Part shown: piece after piece, positions 12,381-49,512 of the stretch | Layout of the letters: the number at the start of each line of letters is the position of its first letter | Position numbering within the stretch: the first letter of the stretch is position 1 | NCBI GenBank assembly: GCA_029262855.1 | Contig: JAJCYP010000004.1 | Coordinates: 33,611-97,610 of the forward strand | Length of the DNA: 64,000 nt | Direction: 5' to 3' | Source of the DNA: Bacteroidota bacterium | GTDB lineage: Bacteria > Bacteroidota > Rhodothermia > Rhodothermales > UBA10348 | Program-made: the position numbers and the translations under genes | Notes under the pieces: model-generated | Databases searched by the model: none | What the model was told of the DNA's origin: nothing | Seen by the model: only the letters and a program-made list of their open reading frames with translations

Positions 12381-12520
12381 CGTGATCACTCCCACCCCAA
12401 ATGGGGCGGGCTTCTCATGAAATCAAGCAGCAATCCGCCCAATTCGCTCATGAAGGCTCGATCCGAGCCTCAGGATGTTCTTCGCGGCATTCACGTCTCT
12501 GTCGTGAGTGACGCCGCAGG
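12381..12520 (-). ncRNA. Predicted TnpB guide RNA (omega/reRNA) scaffold
   Basis: In characterised tnpB elements the guide RNA scaffold is transcribed from the 3' end of tnpB through the right end, and the guide is read from the flanking DNA. The corresponding position here is the last ~100 bp of tnpB plus the right-end hairpin. The guide would come from bases just below about 12381, that is, the Nudix upstream region. This is placement by analogy: no RNA boundary is directly visible. Confidence 0.3.
12391..12410 (-). repeat. Right-end (tnpB-side) hairpin of the IS200/IS605 element
   Basis: On the plus strand CCCACCCCAAATGGGGCGGG folds as a CCCC/GGGG and CCC/GGG stem with one internal A-C (or G-T) mismatch and a four-base loop. 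It begins 13 bp after the tnpB stop. The mismatch is at the same position as in the left-end hairpin, as expected for paired TnpA recognition sites. Confidence 0.8.
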
Positions 12521-13550
12521 AGCACGCCCACTCGCGAACAGCGAGACCGGACTGCCCCTTAGGGCCCTCAATACTTCCACAGGAAGAGCATGCTTGTGTC
12601 GTAAACGCGGGATTCACCTTGATCACGGTAGCACCGGCACATTCTGCCTTGAACTCCAGGATGTTGATGAATTGACCCCACGCTGCATCGACAACGCTCT
12701 TAGCCATGCGAGTTCTTGCGAGTCCCTTGATATTCAGGTCCTCGACCACGATCAAGTCGTAGGCGGTGACCAGTTTTGCCACTTCTTGGAAGTGAAAGTC
12801 TCTTCTTTGGTTATCGATTCGGAAGTGATGAGTAGCGACAGCCGCGCAGGCTTTGCGCCAACGCTTACTGCCCTTCTTGCGCCTGGAAACCCGGCGCTGA
12901 AGGCGGCGCAGTTTGGCCTGCCCATCGCGAAAGAATCGCTTTCGCTCCATCGAGCCGCCGTCGGAGAACGTGCCGAAGGTCTTGAGGCCCAGGTCGATCC
13001 CGACCTCGCGCTCAATAGGGCGCTTGACGGGGACGACATCACCCAGGTCGCAGGAGAGGACCAGATACCACTTACCAGCCTTCCGCTTGAGGCGCATGGT
13101 CTTGACCTTTCCCTCGTAGGGGCGATGCAACTTGACCTTGACGTCGCCGACGTACTGAAATCGAGCCCGACCGGAGTCGAGCATCCTGCATCCATCGCGA
13201 TGCGTGAACTCGATGCTGTCGAATCGGCCCCTGCCCTTAAAGCGGGGAAATCCGGCCTTCTCTCCGGCCTTGACGCGCCGAAAGAAAGCCTGATAGGCCC
13301 GGTCGAGTCTGCGGAGCGTGCGCTGGGCAGAGCTGAAGTTCGTTCGAGCCAGGAAGCCGTTGTATCTACGGTTGATCTTGAAGTCGGCCGACTGGTCGTT
13401 GTAGGAGACGGTATTGCGCGCAGCCTCCCAGACATCAATACGCTGCGCCAGCGCGTCGTTGTAGATGTGGCGGTGCGTCTCAAGCATTTGGGCCATCTCG
13501 GCTTCCTGCTTGCGCGTAGGGTACAGGCGGTATACGAACGACTTCTGCAC
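12423..13550 (-). CDS. tnpB: TnpB RNA-guided nuclease of IS200/IS605
   Basis: The 375-aa protein has the full TnpB architecture: an N-terminal OrfB HTH-type region (MQKSFVYRLYPTRKQEAEMAQ), a central OrfB_IS605 domain and a RuvC nuclease split into GIDLGLKTFGTFSDGG (Asp), IVVEDLNIKGLAR (Glu) and HDRDVNAAKNI (Asp). All three catalytic acids are intact. The zinc ribbon CSSCG...CSCG is present, the second knuckle being CxC. It starts with a GTG directly abutting the tnpA stop (TAGGTG), so translation is coupled. Length and motifs suggest an active enzyme related to the ancestors of Cas12. Confidence 0.95.
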   Translation of the reverse strand: MQKSFVYRLYPTRKQEAEMAQMLETHRHIYNDALAQRIDVWEAARNTVSYNDQSADFKINRRYNGFLARTNFSSAQRTLRRLDRAYQAFFRRVKAGEKAGFPRFKGRGRFDSIEFTHRDGCRMLDSGRARFQYVGDVKVKLHRPYEGKVKTMRLKRKAGKWYLVLSCDLGDVVPVKRPIEREVGIDLGLKTFGTFSDGGSMERKRFFRDGQAKLRRLQRRVSRRKKGSKRWRKACAAVATHHFRIDNQRRDFHFQEVAKLVTAYDLIVVEDLNIKGLARTRMAKSVVDAAWGQFINILEFKAECAGATVIKVNPAFTTQACSSCGSIEGPKGQSGLAVREWACSCGVTHDRDVNAAKNILRLGSSLHERIGRIAA

Positions 13551-13964
13551 CTACCGGCCCTTCTGCTCTTCGATGTACTTGATGATCGCCTTGTCAGTGA
13601 CGTAGCCAACCGAGCCGACGAAGTAGGCGGCGCTCCAAAGGGCGGGAAGCCTACTCCGAAGAGACTCGTGCCTTTGTCGGAGTCGACGGGAGGTAAACCC
13701 CTTGAGGCTATTCGCAATTTCGTGAGGCCCCCACACGGGGGGAGCGGTCACGACTATGTGGACGTGATCAGGCATCACCTCCATCGCCTCAATCTCAATA
13801 CCCATGTCGGCGGCCTTCTCTCTAAGGAGCGACTTCAGGTCTGTCTCAACCTGACCCGTCAGCACCTTGCGGCGATACTTGGGGCACCACACGAAGTGGT
13901 ACTTCAGCATGTAGGCAGATCCGGGGGAAGTCTTGTACCTGGGTGCTTTCACAGTTAGTAGCAT
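13551..13964 (-). CDS. tnpA: TnpA Y1 HUH transposase of IS200/IS605
   Basis: This is the 137-aa single-strand transposase when started at ATG 13964; the track's earlier TTG at 13988 adds eight unlikely residues. The HUH motif is in MPDHVHIVVTAPP, and the catalytic tyrosine is in TDKAIIKYIEEQKGR on the C-terminal helix. The start YKTSPGSAYMLKYHFVWCPKYRRKVL is the family signature. The reading frame is intact, so the element could be autonomous. Confidence 0.95.
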   Translation of the reverse strand: MLLTVKAPRYKTSPGSAYMLKYHFVWCPKYRRKVLTGQVETDLKSLLREKAADMGIEIEAMEVMPDHVHIVVTAPPVWGPHEIANSLKGFTSRRLRQRHESLRSRLPALWSAAYFVGSVGYVTDKAIIKYIEEQKGR

Positions 13965-14021
13965 GCCATGAAGATAACGATGTTCCAAGGCCTTTTCACT
14001 TTCTTAAGAGCGGCGCTTCCG

Positions 14022-20938: not shown

Positions 20939-21115
20939 ACCACTTCTTATCGGCCGTGAGCCCGCCATTTTTAAGTCATGGCCAGCAATTTTCGGCATCG
21001 CTGGGCGGCTAACTTCGAATGTGATTCACCCGCCCGCTCTCTTCTACGGTTCAGGTCTTCCCACACCCTGCAATTCGCCGCCGATGGTGAGATTCATCTC
21101 CCCTACCACACCTAC

Positions 21116-24031
21116 ATGCGGCGCATGAACTCTCCGGTTCGATTTCTGCCCATCCTGCTGCTGATCGCCCCTTCTCAGCGGGCCCAGGGCCAGACCTTCA
21201 CGGATGCGACATCCCGGATCCTGTCTACTCCCGCCCCATCGGCACCCACGGCGTTGACGGTGGCTGATCTCAATGGTGATGGGCGAACGGACATCTACCA
21301 CCCTGGGCGACTCCTTCTGCAGACGGACGAAGGCACGTGGGTCAACGCCCTGCTTGGAAGCGCGATTGACGTGGAGGGCAACGCGCCGCTGATTGGACTG
21401 CCTGGAGATCCCAATGCCGACGGCTTGACTGACCTGCTTATCCTCGATCAAGGTCCGGGCTCCCGGTACTACGAAAACGCGAACACCATCAGGTACCGGC
21501 TCGCAAACGGAGAGCGAACGCTCAACATCCGAACCTTTTCAACCGGGGCCATCTGGGCAGATTTCGACGGTGGAGGCTTGGTCGATTTGTTTATCGCCTC
21601 CTCCGACGGTCAAAATCGCCTCTATGTATCCAACGTCTTTGGGAATTTTATTGATGTCTCCGATGTCAAACGTACCACGACCACGTCAGGCGGATGCGGG
21701 ATGGCCGCCGCGGACTGGGACCACGACCTGGGTCTGGATGTCTACCTGCCGATGTGCCAGGGCAACCCGACCAATCTGCTGTTGGAGTACGATCCGGTCC
21801 GCGACCGCTTTACCGAAAACGCCGGTCGACGAGGCGTGCAGAGTTTCCGGTTCTCCCACTCCGCGGTCTGGCTGGACTACGACAATGACGGATGGCAGGA
21901 TCTGTTCGTTCTGAATGCCAAGCTCGAGCTCGATGATGGTCGCAATCAGCTTTTTCGCAATCTGGAAGGAACGGGGTTTGAAGACGTGACCGCCACCACC
22001 GGTTTGGAGGGCAGCCTCAGGTCACGGCGCCGTGGAGTCGCTGCAGCGGACTTCGACAACGACGGCTGGACCGATCTCTTTGTGACGGCCGAGGCGAATC
22101 GACCCCGGTTGTATCGGAATCAGGGCGATGGGACCTTCACTGACATCGGTCCTTTGGTGTTGCCTCCCCTGCCCGAGACATTGGCCTTTACGGCCGCGGA
22201 TGTTGACGACAACGGCTGGATAGATCTGCTGTTTGGCCCCCCGGAGGGGGATATGCTCCTAACAAATGGAGGAGACAACAACTGGACGCGGATTGCCCTC
22301 AGGGAACCGGGATTCAACCGGCGCGGCATGGGTGCACGCGTGACGGTCAGCGCCGGCGGCATTGAGCAGACCAAGCAAATGCTCATGGGCGGTGGGAACG
22401 TGAGGCATTCGACGGATGCCAAACTGCATTTTGGGCTGGGAGAAGCAGCCGTGATCGACCGGATCCAGATCTTCTGGGCGGACGGCTCGGTGGACCAGAT
22501 CTCGGACCTCGACGTCAACAAAGAGCTGGTCATCGCCCGAGGCGGGACGCTGAGGCCACCTCCATCCACCTTTCAGTTGGGCGAGCCCGTGGACGCCGCA
22601 CTGTTCGATACTTCAGCCGCGCAGATCGATTTTTCGTGGGAGGCCGCGGCCAGCGCGATTCCCCTGACCTACACCGTGAGTATTTGGGGACCGGGCACGC
22701 GACTTCGCTTTCCGGATGTCACAGGCACCAGTATCAGTGTGGACGCTGATCTTCTGGCGCCGGACCAGATCTTCACGTGGTCGGTCTTCGCCGATGACGG
22801 ATTCTCCATCACTCCTGCCACTGGCTCGCGGGTCTTCACATTCGGAGAAGACGCGCGCGCCATTGCCACGCTGACTGCGCCCGCCCTGTTTGACTTCGGA
22901 CTGCAGAAGCCGTCCACGGGACAGGCGGCTTTCCTGGATCTGGACGGTGACCGGGATCTGGATGTTTTCATGGTGGGTTCCGATGGTGTATTCACCATGG
23001 GCGGCGTCTATTCTTCCGTAGACCAGGGCGTTGTCAGCACCAACGGCGGAGAGTTCATCTTCAAGGGACTGGTAAACACGGGGACCGGTCTGGAGCCGGT
23101 TTTTGAACCTCGTCTGGGCGTCGGAGATGTCGACGGAGACGGTCGGCCGGACGCCATGGTCTCGGGCCTCCACCGCGACTCGGGGCGCCCCGCCCTCACG
23201 CTGTATCGAAACCTGCCGACGGGCCTTTCCTCGATTTCCGCTGCCGTGCCGGCCCGGTTTGGCGGGCCCGTGGCCATCGCAGACGTCGATGCCGACGGAG
23301 ATGGCGATCTCCTGCTTTCCGGCTCAGAGAGCGCCTCTCCCCCTTACTCGCCGTCCACCATCCTGTATCGGAACGATGGCAGTGCCTTCTCGGAGTGGGC
23401 CACCTTCCCCGGAGCCATGTTTGGGGATGCGGCCTGGGGTGATGCCGACGGTGACGGTGATCTGGATCTGGCCCTTGTGGGCGATGCCCAAGAGGGGCGT
23501 CCCCACGGAGCCGTCTACAGAAACGACGGTGATTCCTTCAGCGAAATCAGCATCCCGGGAGCCGACCTGCTTTACGCATCCATCGATTGGGGAGACTACG
23601 ACGGCGACGGACTTCTGGACCTCCTCGTGACAGGCGGCGAGATCGGCCCTGAACTGTTGGAAGGACACACGCGTCTCTACAGGCAGAACGCAGGCCTCGT
23701 GTTTGTCGAACAGCCGTCTCCGCTTCCAGGGGTCTTGGCGGGCTCTGCCGTCTTCGGTGACTACGAAAACGACGGCGATCTGGACATCCTTCTTACCGGC
23801 GCGGATTCGATCCTGGGCGAACTGAAGGGGGGTGTTTTCCGAAACCAGGAGGGCCGCTTCGTGGCGGAGCTGGAATTCCAGGGAGCCCTGTCCGGACGAA
23901 TGGCCGTCGGCGACTACAACGGAGACGGCGACCTTGACTTCATCGTTCTCGGACGAGGGCCGGACGGTGCTGGCTCACTGCTGTTCTTCATCAATCAGCA
24001 GGTAGCCGAGCCCGTTCCTGCCACGAGGTGA
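21116..24031 (+). CDS. FG-GAP/VCBS repeat protein with ASPIC/UnbV domain
   Basis: The 971-aa protein starts at ATG 21116 (MRRMNSPVRFLPILLLIAPSQRAQGQ, signal peptide); the track start at 20978 lies over the divergent gene's leader. Seven FG-GAP-type blades come first (DLNGDGRTDIY, DYDNDGWQDLF, DFDNDGWTDLF and others), then a UnbV/ASPIC module (MGARVTVSAGG..KLHFGLGEA..IQIFWADGSVDQ) and a Fn3-like linker. A second propeller of at least seven calcium-binding blades follows (DLDGDRDLDVF, DADGDGDLDLA, DYNGDGDLDFI). No T9SS tail is present at the C-terminus, which is odd for such an architecture in this genome. Its last 41 bp overlap the convergent P450 gene. Confidence 0.85.
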   Translation: MRRMNSPVRFLPILLLIAPSQRAQGQTFTDATSRILSTPAPSAPTALTVADLNGDGRTDIYHPGRLLLQTDEGTWVNALLGSAIDVEGNAPLIGLPGDPNADGLTDLLILDQGPGSRYYENANTIRYRLANGERTLNIRTFSTGAIWADFDGGGLVDLFIASSDGQNRLYVSNVFGNFIDVSDVKRTTTTSGGCGMAAADWDHDLGLDVYLPMCQGNPTNLLLEYDPVRDRFTENAGRRGVQSFRFSHSAVWLDYDNDGWQDLFVLNAKLELDDGRNQLFRNLEGTGFEDVTATTGLEGSLRSRRRGVAAADFDNDGWTDLFVTAEANRPRLYRNQGDGTFTDIGPLVLPPLPETLAFTAADVDDNGWIDLLFGPPEGDMLLTNGGDNNWTRIALREPGFNRRGMGARVTVSAGGIEQTKQMLMGGGNVRHSTDAKLHFGLGEAAVIDRIQIFWADGSVDQISDLDVNKELVIARGGTLRPPPSTFQLGEPVDAALFDTSAAQIDFSWEAAASAIPLTYTVSIWGPGTRLRFPDVTGTSISVDADLLAPDQIFTWSVFADDGFSITPATGSRVFTFGEDARAIATLTAPALFDFGLQKPSTGQAAFLDLDGDRDLDVFMVGSDGVFTMGGVYSSVDQGVVSTNGGEFIFKGLVNTGTGLEPVFEPRLGVGDVDGDGRPDAMVSGLHRDSGRPALTLYRNLPTGLSSISAAVPARFGGPVAIADVDADGDGDLLLSGSESASPPYSPSTILYRNDGSAFSEWATFPGAMFGDAAWGDADGDGDLDLALVGDAQEGRPHGAVYRNDGDSFSEISIPGADLLYASIDWGDYDGDGLLDLLVTGGEIGPELLEGHTRLYRQNAGLVFVEQPSPLPGVLAGSAVFGDYENDGDLDILLTGADSILGELKGGVFRNQEGRFVAELEFQGALSGRMAVGDYNGDGDLDFIVLGRGPDGAGSLLFFINQQVAEPVPATR

Positions 24032-44920: not shown

Positions 44921-47437
44921 TCAACGTTGGGTCAATTTCAAAGAGAGTCTCTCCACGAGCGACTCAAAGGACTCCTCGAAGTCCGGTTGCAGGTCAAACA
45001 GGGGGCAGCTGGCCCGGGCGGTCATGGCGGTGCCACCCTTCGTATCTCCCTCACCCGGCGTAGTGGACGCCGATTCGGAGCCACTTGTTTCGGCCATGGC
45101 AAAGGCTGACTGCACCCTCGTGCGGGCTTCCGCCTCGTTGCCTTCACGCCAGGCAAGGAAGGCCCTCCAGACGGCCACTGTGGTGTTGCCGGGGTCGGAT
45201 AGCAGAACAGCGTCAAACTGACTCCTTGCCTCGGCCAGGTCGCCCAGGGCCAGAGCAGTCATCCCCAGACGGGCCAGGCCTCCAGTCTCAGCCCGATTCA
45301 GCGAATGCGCGCGCTCGAAGTAGCCCCTTGCTGTCTGCGGATCGTACGAGGAGCCATCCGGCCGGCATAGACGGAGCGATCCCAACTGCATCAAAGCGCG
45401 TGCGCTTCGGGGATTGGCCGCCAGTAGACGATTCCAGGCGTCAGTCGCGCCCTCGTCATCTCCCATGTCAAGTCGAACAGCACCGAGATAGTACAGGGCG
45501 TCTTCATGCTCTGGCCTGAAGGTGAGTGCCTTGACGTAGGCCGTCGCCGCCTCTTCAGACCTGCCCGCAAGCCGATGCCCGCTGGCGGCCCGGTATGACT
45601 CCCAGAACATGTGAGTCGCATCTCTCTCGTCCGGACTGGAATCCAGGGTGCTGAGGTGGCGGGCATCTCCGCGAATCGGTACGACCACGGTCACGCCGGC
45701 AGGTTGTGGCCCCAATTCTGATCGCTCTCCGGTAATCCAGCGGACCGTCACCGAGTCCGCACCGGAGGCATCGCCCAATCCGAATACCAGTACCGGATCA
45801 TGCTGCGACAAGTACGACGCCTGCGCCCCCACCTGCCTGGTCTGCACCTCGCCGCCACTGTGGACCCGCACGAGGGCACCGAGTCCGGCGGTATTTCCGG
45901 CCGGCCCCTCCAGGAGCACCCTCAGCCAGCCACCGGTGTCTGGGGTATCGTTGCGCAGGAGTCGGGCTGCGCCTCCATGCTCGATCAGAAGGATATCGGG
46001 ATCGCCATCTCCATCGTAGTCGGAGACGCCGCCACCACGGCCTACCGCGGGCTCACCAAAAGCGGGGCCCGCCTCGAGGCTGTAGAAGCCGCGGTCCGTT
46101 CCTCCATTCCAGTACAGGAGCGGAGGCATGGAAATGAGCTGGGTCGGATCACTCGATGTCTGAAACGTGCTTCCGTTGACCATGAACAGGTCCTCGTGCC
46201 CATCCAGATCAAAGTCGAAAAACCCGGTGGCCCATCCGACATAGTCCAGTGAGGATTGGCCAAGTCCATTTCGGTCTGCGATGTCGCTGAACCGAAGACC
46301 GTACGCGTGCTCGGTCCGGTGAATCAGGAGGTTTTCAAAAAGGGCGTTTTCCTGCGCGATCCAGTGGGTGATGAAGAGGTCCTGATCCCCGTCCCGATCC
46401 CAATCGCCCACTGCCAACCCCATTGCGCCCCTGTAGTCGGCGACACCCGTTGTGTGGCTCACGTCCTCGAACGTCCCGTCGCCTGAATTCAGGAAGAGAA
46501 TGTTGTCCGAGACGTCGTTTGCTACATACAGGTCCAGTTGGCCATCGTTGTTCATGTCCACCCAGGCCGCTGACAGGCTCCGTCCGGCGGCGTTGTCAAC
46601 CCCTGCGGAAGAGGCCACCTCGCTGAATCGCCCCCTGCCGTCGTTTCGGAAGAGGAGGTTGCGCTCGGCCGGGAATGAAGAAGGATTCAGGCTCGCTGGT
46701 TGCTCGACCTCGTATTGTCTTGAGAACCCGGTGGCGACGCGGTCCTCATACTTGACGTAGCCTGTCACATACACGTCCAGGTCGCCGTCCTGATCGTAGT
46801 CACCCGGAGACACGCCTGTCCAGAATCCCGTGAAACCGGCGAGGCCGGCGTCGCCGGAGGCCTCCTGAAAGCGCCCATCACCGAGATTGCGGAAGAACCG
46901 GTTCTGGCCGTAGGCCGTGGTCCACAGGTCCAGCAGCCCATCTGCGTTGTAGTCTCCCCAAGCCGCCGCCGAGCCCATTTCCGACACCGCGAGTCCTGAT
47001 TCCGCTGAAACGTCCTTGAAGGAGCCGTCTCCCTCGTTGCGAAACAGCCGGTTCCCGGGCCTGCCGGCCCGACTCGGAACGTCATCTTCGGCGGCCTTGA
47101 CGAAGTTCACCAGGAAGAGGTCGGCGTCTCCGTCCCCATCGTAGTCACCCCATGCCATGCCGCCGGCCATGTCCTCGTAGAGCACGCTCGTGCGGGTGCC
47201 GGGGAAATGGCGAAAGGCGATGCCCGACGATTCAGCGACCTCGGAGAACGCAAGACGGGGCGCGTCCGGTGGAGCCGTACGACTCAGGCTCCGGGTGAGG
47301 CCATCAATATCCTGCCCAGGTCGATAAACGGGACCCTCGCTGCTTCGCGAAAGTGCAGCCACCAGCAGGGCGGCCGCGGCAACCGTGACGGCTCCCACCA
47401 TCAGGACGCCCCTTCGTCGTCGAGAGAGCGCGGCCAT
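44921..47437 (-). CDS. CRTAC1-type FG-GAP/UnbV propeller with TPR tail
   Basis: The 838-aa protein starts at ATG 47437, 2 bp after the cytochrome stop (MAALSRRRRGVLMVGAVTVAA, membrane anchor); the track's 77-residue extension overlaps the cytochrome gene. Seven or more FG-GAP calcium-type blades are visible (DYDGDGDADLF, DYNADGLLDLW, DYDQDGDLDVY, DMNNDGQLDLY, DWDRDGDQDLF, DFDLDGHEDLF, DYDGDGDPDIL). An ASPIC/UnbV domain follows near 500-590 (GLGALVRVHSGGEV, VTVRWITGERSEL). The C-terminal third is TPR repeats (DALYYLGAVRLDMGDDEGA and GLARLGMTALALGDLAEAR). The likely location is periplasmic, anchored in the inner membrane. Confidence 0.88.
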   Translation of the reverse strand: MAALSRRRRGVLMVGAVTVAAAALLVAALSRSSEGPVYRPGQDIDGLTRSLSRTAPPDAPRLAFSEVAESSGIAFRHFPGTRTSVLYEDMAGGMAWGDYDGDGDADLFLVNFVKAAEDDVPSRAGRPGNRLFRNEGDGSFKDVSAESGLAVSEMGSAAAWGDYNADGLLDLWTTAYGQNRFFRNLGDGRFQEASGDAGLAGFTGFWTGVSPGDYDQDGDLDVYVTGYVKYEDRVATGFSRQYEVEQPASLNPSSFPAERNLLFRNDGRGRFSEVASSAGVDNAAGRSLSAAWVDMNNDGQLDLYVANDVSDNILFLNSGDGTFEDVSHTTGVADYRGAMGLAVGDWDRDGDQDLFITHWIAQENALFENLLIHRTEHAYGLRFSDIADRNGLGQSSLDYVGWATGFFDFDLDGHEDLFMVNGSTFQTSSDPTQLISMPPLLYWNGGTDRGFYSLEAGPAFGEPAVGRGGGVSDYDGDGDPDILLIEHGGAARLLRNDTPDTGGWLRVLLEGPAGNTAGLGALVRVHSGGEVQTRQVGAQASYLSQHDPVLVFGLGDASGADSVTVRWITGERSELGPQPAGVTVVVPIRGDARHLSTLDSSPDERDATHMFWESYRAASGHRLAGRSEEAATAYVKALTFRPEHEDALYYLGAVRLDMGDDEGATDAWNRLLAANPRSARALMQLGSLRLCRPDGSSYDPQTARGYFERAHSLNRAETGGLARLGMTALALGDLAEARSQFDAVLLSDPGNTTVAVWRAFLAWREGNEAEARTRVQSAFAMAETSGSESASTTPGEGDTKGGTAMTARASCPLFDLQPDFEESFESLVERLSLKLTQR

Positions 47438-47439
47438 CC

Positions 47440-49512
47440 TCAGGTACCGGAGACCTGGATCGTCGCCCGGTCTTCTGACATCACCGTTATGGGCGACGTA
47501 ATGCCGGCACCGGGAAAGAGCGTGTCCAGCATGAACTGATCGATCTTGCGATAGAGCAGCCGGGCCGTCACCTCCAGGCGGCCTACCGCCGGTGCGGACA
47601 GCACGTGACCACTTCGTAGCGGAAGCCTCTCCCCTTCTCCGTCGCCCTCGACGCCAAAAGTTGGACACTGGAAGGCAAACCGGGCCTGGTCATCGAATCC
47701 GGGGAAGAGGGCCCGGCGGTACCGGACGCCCACCATCTCCCAGAGGTTGTGTCGATCGATGAGGTTGCCATATCGGTCCACCGGTTCGGCCTTGAACATG
47801 AACGCGCCCGGCTCGACAAATCGGTCCTCGTCGACTCCGCCCGACTGGTAGACGATTCTCCCCTGGTCATCTTCGACCGTGATCTCAATCCAAGCCTGGA
47901 TGATGTCGAGCGGTCCAGTGGGAAAATCGTGGCCGAGTTTGTTGTTCGTGACCAGGACCGTCACGGCCATCTCCTCGCCTGCTACCACCCGCTCGGGCGC
48001 GATGATCTCGATCGGAACGGCCGGTCCAGGCTGCCACTTGTCGCTGATCTCCGGGATCGCGTAATCGCCTTTCAGCCAGGCTTCAGTGAGTCGAACCTGC
48101 TCCTCACCGCCCGGAAGTTTGAGGTGGGTCGGCATGAGTTGATTGGCTCCCAGGAACCGGTGACTGCGGTGTTTTCCGTCATCGGGCGTCCGGTTGTAGT
48201 CGGTGGCATCGCCCCCAGCCGGATCCAGAGATGGTGTCAGGGGCATGTGACACTCGCGGCACTCAATGGTCTGTGTCGGATCTCCCGGGTGGTTCCACCG
48301 GCTCTTTCGCCAGTTGTCGTACTGATTCTGCAGCTGTACCCAGCCAACTTGATTGATCTCTTCGTCAATGAACTGCTTGTGACAGGCCGCACAGAACTCC
48401 GGGGACTTGAACAGGGTCTTCTGCAAGGACTCCTGATGCATCCGGGGATAGGCGCGGATCAGGAATCGCGATACGCTCTGGGCAGCCGGCGTATGGCTGA
48501 GTTCGAACGCATAGCGACGCGGAGGATCTATGGTGTAGTCGGCGTTCCCCTGAACATCGGTTTCCTGAATGGCGTGGCAGGTGAGACAGGAGACGCCCTC
48601 CTCAAACCCGTCCCGGAGCGAGAGGCTGTCCGCAAACAGGTTCTTGGACCCGGCAAAAAGTGAAATCGGGTCGTGGCAGCCGCCGCAGTAGCGGGTGCTC
48701 TCCGGTCCGTTCTGGTCCGCCATCACTCCCTGCACGCCCTGGAATGCCGGATCCATGGAACTCCACCTGTGCGCGGAGACCGACCATTCCTGTTCGATTT
48801 CCGAGTGACATCCGTCGTATCCGCACCCCTCAGAGCCCGCCAGCATCTCAGGATTAATCGGAAGACCGGCAGCCGTCTTGGCCAGACTTGGAGCAAAAGG
48901 CCGATCGTCGCCATAGAGGTGGCTGTAGTCCTCCGGGAAGTCTGTATAGGCCTGGGGCTCGGAGTAGAGCTGGGCGGCGAGAACGGTCCCGAAGAGTCCA
49001 AGCAGGGTCACCATCAAGACCCGGACACCCATGGAGCGCGCTCCCTGAAGCATGGCTGGATGCTCCTGACGGGCCGCGCGGAGGGCACGGCGAACCAAGG
49101 GCACGAAGTGACCGGCAACCGCGCCCACAAACGCGATGGTAGAGCCGATGTGGATCTTGTCCCAAAGTCCGCTGATGTGTGTCCCGAAGACGGCTTGTGC
49201 GGTCAGCACGACACCGGACACTATCGCGATCAGCGTTGCCGCGGTTGAGAGATAGCCCGTGAGTACAACCACATCCATTGGCGTGGATCGCAGTCGGGCC
49301 CAGTGCCGGTATTGGTAATACAGGGCGGGGAGCATGAACAGGAGACCGCCCCCGGTGTGGACGAGCACGAGGAACTGGTTGCTGACCGAGAACGGGAGCA
49401 GCCATATGGACAGACCGGAAACGGTCTCGAATACCAGCAAGCCGGACACGCTCCATGCGAGTGGAGCCGTCCAGACACTGGAACGCGTTCGAACTGAGGC
49501 GTTGGAGTTCAT
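47440..49512 (-). CDS. Fused membrane cytochrome b / multihaem cytochrome c
   Basis: The 690-aa protein has five N-terminal membrane helices (residues about 15-190) that contain histidines positioned as haem b ligands (LVLVHTGGG, KIHIGSTIAF, AVAGHFVPL). A large periplasmic domain follows with four CxxCH sites (CGGCH 276-280, CLTCH 309-313, CAACH 374-378, CRECH 418-422) and one CX4CH site (CGYDGCH 230-236). It therefore can hold up to five haem c plus b-type haems in one chain. The C-terminal ~200 residues are beta-rich (PIEIIAPERVVAGEEMAVTV) and look like an Ig-type domain. Expected role: quinol oxidation and transfer of electrons to a periplasmic or outer acceptor. It heads the cluster with the CRTAC1 and flavoenzyme genes. 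Confidence 0.88.
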   Translation of the reverse strand: MNSNASVRTRSSVWTAPLAWSVSGLLVFETVSGLSIWLLPFSVSNQFLVLVHTGGGLLFMLPALYYQYRHWARLRSTPMDVVVLTGYLSTAATLIAIVSGVVLTAQAVFGTHISGLWDKIHIGSTIAFVGAVAGHFVPLVRRALRAARQEHPAMLQGARSMGVRVLMVTLLGLFGTVLAAQLYSEPQAYTDFPEDYSHLYGDDRPFAPSLAKTAAGLPINPEMLAGSEGCGYDGCHSEIEQEWSVSAHRWSSMDPAFQGVQGVMADQNGPESTRYCGGCHDPISLFAGSKNLFADSLSLRDGFEEGVSCLTCHAIQETDVQGNADYTIDPPRRYAFELSHTPAAQSVSRFLIRAYPRMHQESLQKTLFKSPEFCAACHKQFIDEEINQVGWVQLQNQYDNWRKSRWNHPGDPTQTIECRECHMPLTPSLDPAGGDATDYNRTPDDGKHRSHRFLGANQLMPTHLKLPGGEEQVRLTEAWLKGDYAIPEISDKWQPGPAVPIEIIAPERVVAGEEMAVTVLVTNNKLGHDFPTGPLDIIQAWIEITVEDDQGRIVYQSGGVDEDRFVEPGAFMFKAEPVDRYGNLIDRHNLWEMVGVRYRRALFPGFDDQARFAFQCPTFGVEGDGEGERLPLRSGHVLSAPAVGRLEVTARLLYRKIDQFMLDTLFPGAGITSPITVMSEDRATIQVSGT

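Follow-up and report, generated by a model that had tools for sequence, protein, structure and literature searches.

Among the closest described systems is CbcL of Geobacter sulfurreducens, an experimentally studied inner-membrane quinone oxidoreductase in which a six-helix di-haem b membrane domain is fused to nine haems c (PMC9129911). For the c-type part, cable-bacterium proteins together with ExtKL and Gsu2801 have been grouped as the PHC family, whose members have Ig-like domains and structurally resemble cytochrome c552 of Thermochromatium tepidum, and some of which carry truncated haemoglobin domains (PMC11976967). Genes of the CRTAC1 / ASPIC-UnbV type flank HZS alpha and beta-gamma homologues of clades I-III (PMC12758564). 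The cytochrome encoded at positions 47440-49512 of the window (the 64-kb stretch of DNA analysed here) was compared with each of these. Similar to CbcL, it combines a probable di-haem b membrane domain and a periplasmic multihaem c domain in one chain, but five helices and five haem-c motifs were found against the six helices and nine haems c of CbcL, which sets it outside CbcL, and the Ig domain and the CRTAC1 partner belong to the present cytochrome. With the T. tepidum structure (5ze8) and the PHC proteins (ExtKL, Gsu2801 and the cable-bacterium sPHC and lPHC) it shares five haem-c motifs in identical order, a c554-like start and, at the C-terminus, an Ig-like domain that bears a motif of the GHxxPxG type; it differs from them by the N-terminal membrane cytochrome b and by CX4CH in place of CxxCH at haem 1. 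The hydrazine-synthase-like loci likewise encode a CRTAC1 protein beside a haem-c-containing redox system, but their cytochromes are other ones and CRTAC1 there flanks HZS homologues (PMC12758564). A first-pass annotation of this DNA had stated that the cytochrome has no clear counterpart among the standard NapC, NrfH or c554 proteins; taken as the lack of any counterpart, this was too strong, because the c domain has the fold of 5ze8 and CbcL is a studied b-plus-c fusion (PMC9129911).

The reading frame starts with ATG and encodes 690 aa on the minus strand; its features and those of the adjoining gene are collected in Table 1. Structure prediction, one of the checks proposed by the first-pass annotation, gave a confident AlphaFold2 model when 95 sequences were used (pLDDT 88, pTM 0.86), which replaced a poor run with 20 sequences (pLDDT 66). 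The model places membrane helices at residues 17-38, 43-74, 81-109, 115-148 and 152-182, in agreement with hydropathy, and thus bears out the five N-terminal helices claimed at first pass; the paired histidines noted there lie on helix 2 (H52/H70) and helix 4 (H121/H135), at positions compatible with two bis-His haems b, and the beta-rich C-terminal domain is present in the model as well. Ten of the 11 cysteines fall within the five haem-c motifs. When the sequence was shuffled, even a single CxxCH turned up in 0.5% of cases, and a CX4CH likewise in 0.5%, so that the set of four CxxCH and one CX4CH is not a product of chance, an origin ruled out by the shuffling together with the conservation described below. 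No CxxCH was found in the other predicted genes of the window. Elsewhere in the window, two adjoining ORFs (12423-13988, minus strand), TnpA-like and TnpB-like by visual inspection of their translations, resemble an IS200/IS605 element.

Table 1 Features of the cytochrome gene and of its CRTAC1 partner gene (window positions).
Feature	Position	Strand	Basis
Membrane cytochrome: b-type domain, penta-haem c domain and Ig-like domain	47440..49512	-	ORF, homologues, model, Foldseek 5ze8
Five-helix membrane cytochrome b domain, aa 17-183; H52, H70, H121 and H135 probable ligands of two haems b	48964..49464	-	
Haem-c motif 1, CGYDGCH (CX4CH), aa 230-236	48805..48825	-	
Haem-c motif 2, CGGCH, aa 276-280	48673..48687	-	
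Haem-c motif 3, CLTCH, aa 309-313	48574..48588	-	
Haem-c motif 4, CAACH, aa 374-378, followed by invariant K379	48379..48393	-	
Haem-c motif 5, CRECH, aa 418-422, followed by invariant M423	48247..48261	-	
C-terminal Ig-like beta domain, aa 501-690, with invariant GHDFPTG motif region (H528)	47443..48012	-	model, conservation
Membrane-anchored FG-GAP / ASPIC-UnbV (CRTAC1) propeller with C-terminal TPR, 838 aa	44921..47437	-	Pfam, structure match, adjacency

A search for the same b-plus-c fusion, likewise proposed at first pass, retrieved homologues at 80 loci in named genomes (41-61% identity in the best segment), with CbcL as a precedent (PMC9129911). These loci are spread over about 14 phyla (Gemmatimonadota, Acidobacteriota, Planctomycetota, Verrucomicrobiota, Bacteroidota, Balneolota, Rhodothermota, Fidelibacterota, Krumholzibacteriota, Latescibacterota, Poribacteria, Chloroflexota, Actinomycetota and Pseudomonadota), although a phylum known from one bin should be treated with care because most homologues come from metagenome bins. 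Exactly four CxxCH and one CX4CH, the set reported by the first-pass annotation, occurred in 76/76 cleanly translated named-genome homologues, and the single-chain b-plus-c architecture that it had described is common to 80 aligned homologues (45-62% identity), in all of which the five haem-c motifs are retained; this rules out a frameshift or an annotation fusion. In this short family, H52, H70, H121 and H135 show no substitution in any sequence covering them (80, 80, 80 and 81 sequences, respectively, the window protein included), and the only other invariant residues in the alignment of the membrane domain are L18, G56, G86 and G100, the signature that would be expected of a di-haem cytochrome b. 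A long subfamily (890-1000 aa, 26-30% identity) combines the b domain and the same set of five motifs with a TPR at the C-terminus.

The reading to which we lean, if only slightly, is that of a quinone-linked electron-transfer subunit with the CRTAC1-TPR protein as its dedicated partner. Helices 2 and 4 would hold two stacked haems b, ligated by H52-H121 on the periplasmic side and by H70-H135 on the cytoplasmic side, a topology that we infer together with a C-terminus lying outside. These haems would carry electrons between the quinone pool and the five haems c of a periplasmic domain of the c552 / PHC type, in which haem 1 would be attached through the CX4CH, and the CRTAC1-TPR protein would probably dock or hold the physiological substrate or the next electron carrier. 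The likeliest flow would run from quinol through the haems b and the haems c to a periplasmic acceptor; this direction is preferred because of the analogy with CbcL. The quinol oxidase activity named at first pass would be plausible. The source genome encodes haem-c assembly proteins of the Cytochrom_C_asm family. Several results count against the electron-transfer reading: no quinone site was identified in the cytochrome, no substrate enzyme or terminal reductase was found consistently near it, and membrane histidines are lost in one clade described below.

The membrane domain matched DUF4405 at 17.6 bits, under the Pfam gathering score of 26.7, and weak DUF4405 matches were obtained for 10 of 17 membrane domains; the four conserved membrane-helix histidines of that superfamily are present (H52, H70, H121, H135), and paired histidines in membrane helices are common to this domain and to the di-haem four-helix cytochromes b (DUF4405, FdnI, b561). 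A eukaryotic-type b561 was rejected, its one profile match (Dcytb, E 0.0027) being lost with the membrane domain alone, and helices 2 and 4 carry two histidines each, unlike the arrangement in b561. The best PDB match was weak (FdnI, 1kqf chain C, E 0.19). An alternative explanation is that electrons run the other way, the periplasmic part and CRTAC1 oxidising a substrate and the haems b delivering the electrons to quinone, much as the membrane arm of formate dehydrogenase N does. The FdnI match, haems b that seem to span the membrane and the CRTAC1 proteins adjoining hydrazine-synthase-like genes (PMC12758564) would agree with such a reverse flow, but we regard it as unlikely, since the FdnI similarity is below significance and the cytochrome is not encoded together with a catalytic subunit, for instance a molybdopterin enzyme; direction as such is nothing that sequence can reveal.

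In a Foldseek search of the PDB, the only match to the periplasmic part with E <= 0.001 was 5ze8, the penta-haem cytochrome c552 of T. tepidum (E 1.9e-11, target TM 0.70), while the other matches look spurious (Ig-like or helical repeats). The 5ze8 chain was found by the family profile as well (E 5.4e-7), with a weaker match to the multihaem selenoprotein MccSep. By model and profile, the c domain together with the Ig-like domain is thus assigned to the penta-haem c552 / PHC fold, and the beta-rich C-terminal domain belongs to a known fold because 5ze8 and the PHC proteins have an Ig-like domain; a motif similar to GHDFPTG is also present in 5ze8 (PHAMPTG) and MccSep (GHSIPDG). A cytochrome c554 domain (PF13435) was detected at residues 235-313 with 25.3 bits, above the gathering score of 20.8, an assignment at domain level only. 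The ExtKL model NF040886 reached 21.4 bits against a curated cut-off of 250, and the NrfH model TIGR03153 gave 10.9 bits against 134, in line with the placement outside NapC/NrfH made at first pass. NapC/NrfH, NrfA, OmcA/MtrC and DmsE were all rejected, their matches being weak and far under the cut-offs or the defining motif missing. In the profile alignment, the CX4CH of motif 1 corresponds to a CxxCH in 5ze8 and therefore represents a two-residue insertion in this motif; two diverged relatives (L017, L018) have CxxCH at motif 1, and CxxCH at haem 1 is not a known requirement of the penta-haem c552 / PHC fold.

Only four non-motif histidines (H248, H359, H451 and H528) are invariant in both the short and the long subfamily for five haems c, and one haem c may therefore have a different or open sixth site. 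This would suit a PHC domain that acts as a terminal reductase, in which a haem c with an open or weak distal site reduces a small oxidised N, S or O compound, and the invariant K379 behind motif 4 and the cable-bacterium relatives with fused truncated haemoglobins, which are listed as potentially catalytic (PMC11976967), point the same way. We nevertheless hold a terminal reductase to be distinctly improbable, because H448 and H588, which are invariant in the short family only, could provide an alternative fifth ligand there, and because the NrfA-like CXXCK site is absent from the cytochrome, in which all five motifs end in His.

The strongest fact, absent from the first-pass annotation, is the invariant CRTAC1(-TPR) gene directly downstream. 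Its ATG at 47437 lies two bases past the cytochrome stop, and its product has a hydrophobic N-terminal anchor and FG-GAP_3 (5.5e-40, 136.2 bits), UnbV_ASPIC (1.8e-15, 57 bits) and TPR matches in Pfam, the two former placing it among the CRTAC1/ASPIC-UnbV proteins; the propeller matches human CRTAC1 (9etn, E 3.4e-19). The pairing is obligate in the loci covered: a CRTAC1 gene was the next gene downstream on the same strand in 74/74 testable loci (76 were analysed, of which two stop at a contig boundary), usually at a distance of <= ~40 bp (median ~15 bp). Pairwise distances of cytochromes and CRTAC1 proteins were correlated (r = 0.73, 56 loci). Across 61 genomes of the order, a close cytochrome orthologue and a close CRTAC1 partner were restricted to the identical six genomes, the partners in the other five of these six having 52-55% identity and the next match 42%; the probability of such a coincidence is ~1.8e-8 (1 in 55.5 million), with three of the six sharing a genus. 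Orthologues with ~60% identity were present in 5/60 relatives of the source genome, and a sampling of the phylum yielded 8/297 genomes, five of the eight from one genus. Its orthologues have up to 96% identity with Rhodothermus sp. MAG proteins, which indicates that this genus is Rhodothermus, and the source genome is assigned to the same order. The module was found in two Rhodothermus sp. MAGs and in Fodinibius sediminis DSM 21194 (L104). Its spread is patchy, as for a cassette moving between lineages, and stable within Rhodothermus. Beyond TPR or extra CRTAC1 copies, no third gene family was found to recur widely near the module. A further ORF of the window (20978-24031, plus strand, 1017 aa) has weak similarity to the CRTAC1 propeller (E ~1e-16) and adjoins no cytochrome.

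Over the 74 loci, the TPR was fused to CRTAC1 in 39, encoded by a separate neighbouring ORF in 21 and not found in seven, the contig ending in the remaining seven. In the long subfamily it is part of the cytochrome, so that the TPR moves between the two partners, fused to either according to subfamily, and its fusion to the cytochrome is, as read from the sequences, a Rosetta-stone link between them. By analogy with the TPR protein NrfG, the CRTAC1-TPR protein could serve specifically in maturing or assembling the CX4CH haem instead of being a redox partner. Strict gene pairing would be expected in that case too, and TPR_CcmH_CycH matched the window protein (1.9e-4) and relatives (1.5e-8 and 7.3e-9), all under the curated cut-off, but TPR families all cross-match, six loci (L091, L092, L105-L108) keep the CX4CH with no TPR match, L018 retains the TPR region though its motif 1 is CxxCH, and the propeller, not the TPR, is the invariant element; we consider a maturation role very unlikely. 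Seven Acidobacteriota loci (L048, L051, L055, L059, L063, L087, L098) have a neighbouring TPR ORF of at least ~600 aa, which in most cases includes a second CRTAC1-like region, so that the cytochrome-CRTAC1 pair may be followed there by a fused TPR-CRTAC1 protein.

A CRTAC1 gene was also found near the long-subfamily cytochrome in 8/10 extended loci (L111, L113, L114, L115, L117, L118, L119, L121). Within this subfamily, one clade (L019/L020/L022/L024) has lost H70 in all members and H135 in 3/4, which suggests that the cytoplasmic-side haem b was lost and a single haem b is left; the full transmembrane haem pair is therefore not universal. The source genome itself carries two further paralogues: a long one with TPR, accompanied by a convergent CRTAC1 gene (L111; G000:C49:96000-110000), and a multihaem c protein that is more distantly related (L112; G000:C39:26000-38000). 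The sole cysteine of the window cytochrome outside the haem motifs, C616 in the Ig-like domain (47665-47667, minus strand), is kept in 89% of the short family and missing from the long subfamily.

Overall, the penta-haem c552 fold and the di-haem b domain are already known kinds, and it is the strictly conserved CRTAC1/TPR partnership that is apparently undescribed; no description of the two-gene cytochrome-CRTAC1 module was found in the open-access literature. The CRTAC1 propeller family may repeatedly partner haem-c redox systems, because it also occurs beside hydrazine-synthase-like genes. We tentatively propose, as a possibility falling somewhat short of probable, that the cytochrome works together with CRTAC1 and TPR as a widespread respiratory complex not described so far, the integrin-like propeller being an obligate partner, in the periplasm, for a quinone-linked b/c cytochrome with seven haems. 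Such a complex, if it exists, would explain the recurrence of CRTAC1 proteins beside bacterial multihaem cytochromes. The module is testable because it is present in the cultured genus Rhodothermus and in F. sediminis DSM 21194. If the proposal is true, it would represent an overlooked respiratory entry or exit point in many bacteria from soils, marine sites and hot springs, spread over about 14 phyla, and the abundant bacterial CRTAC1/ASPIC-UnbV proteins, for which no known function was found, would get a first testable role.
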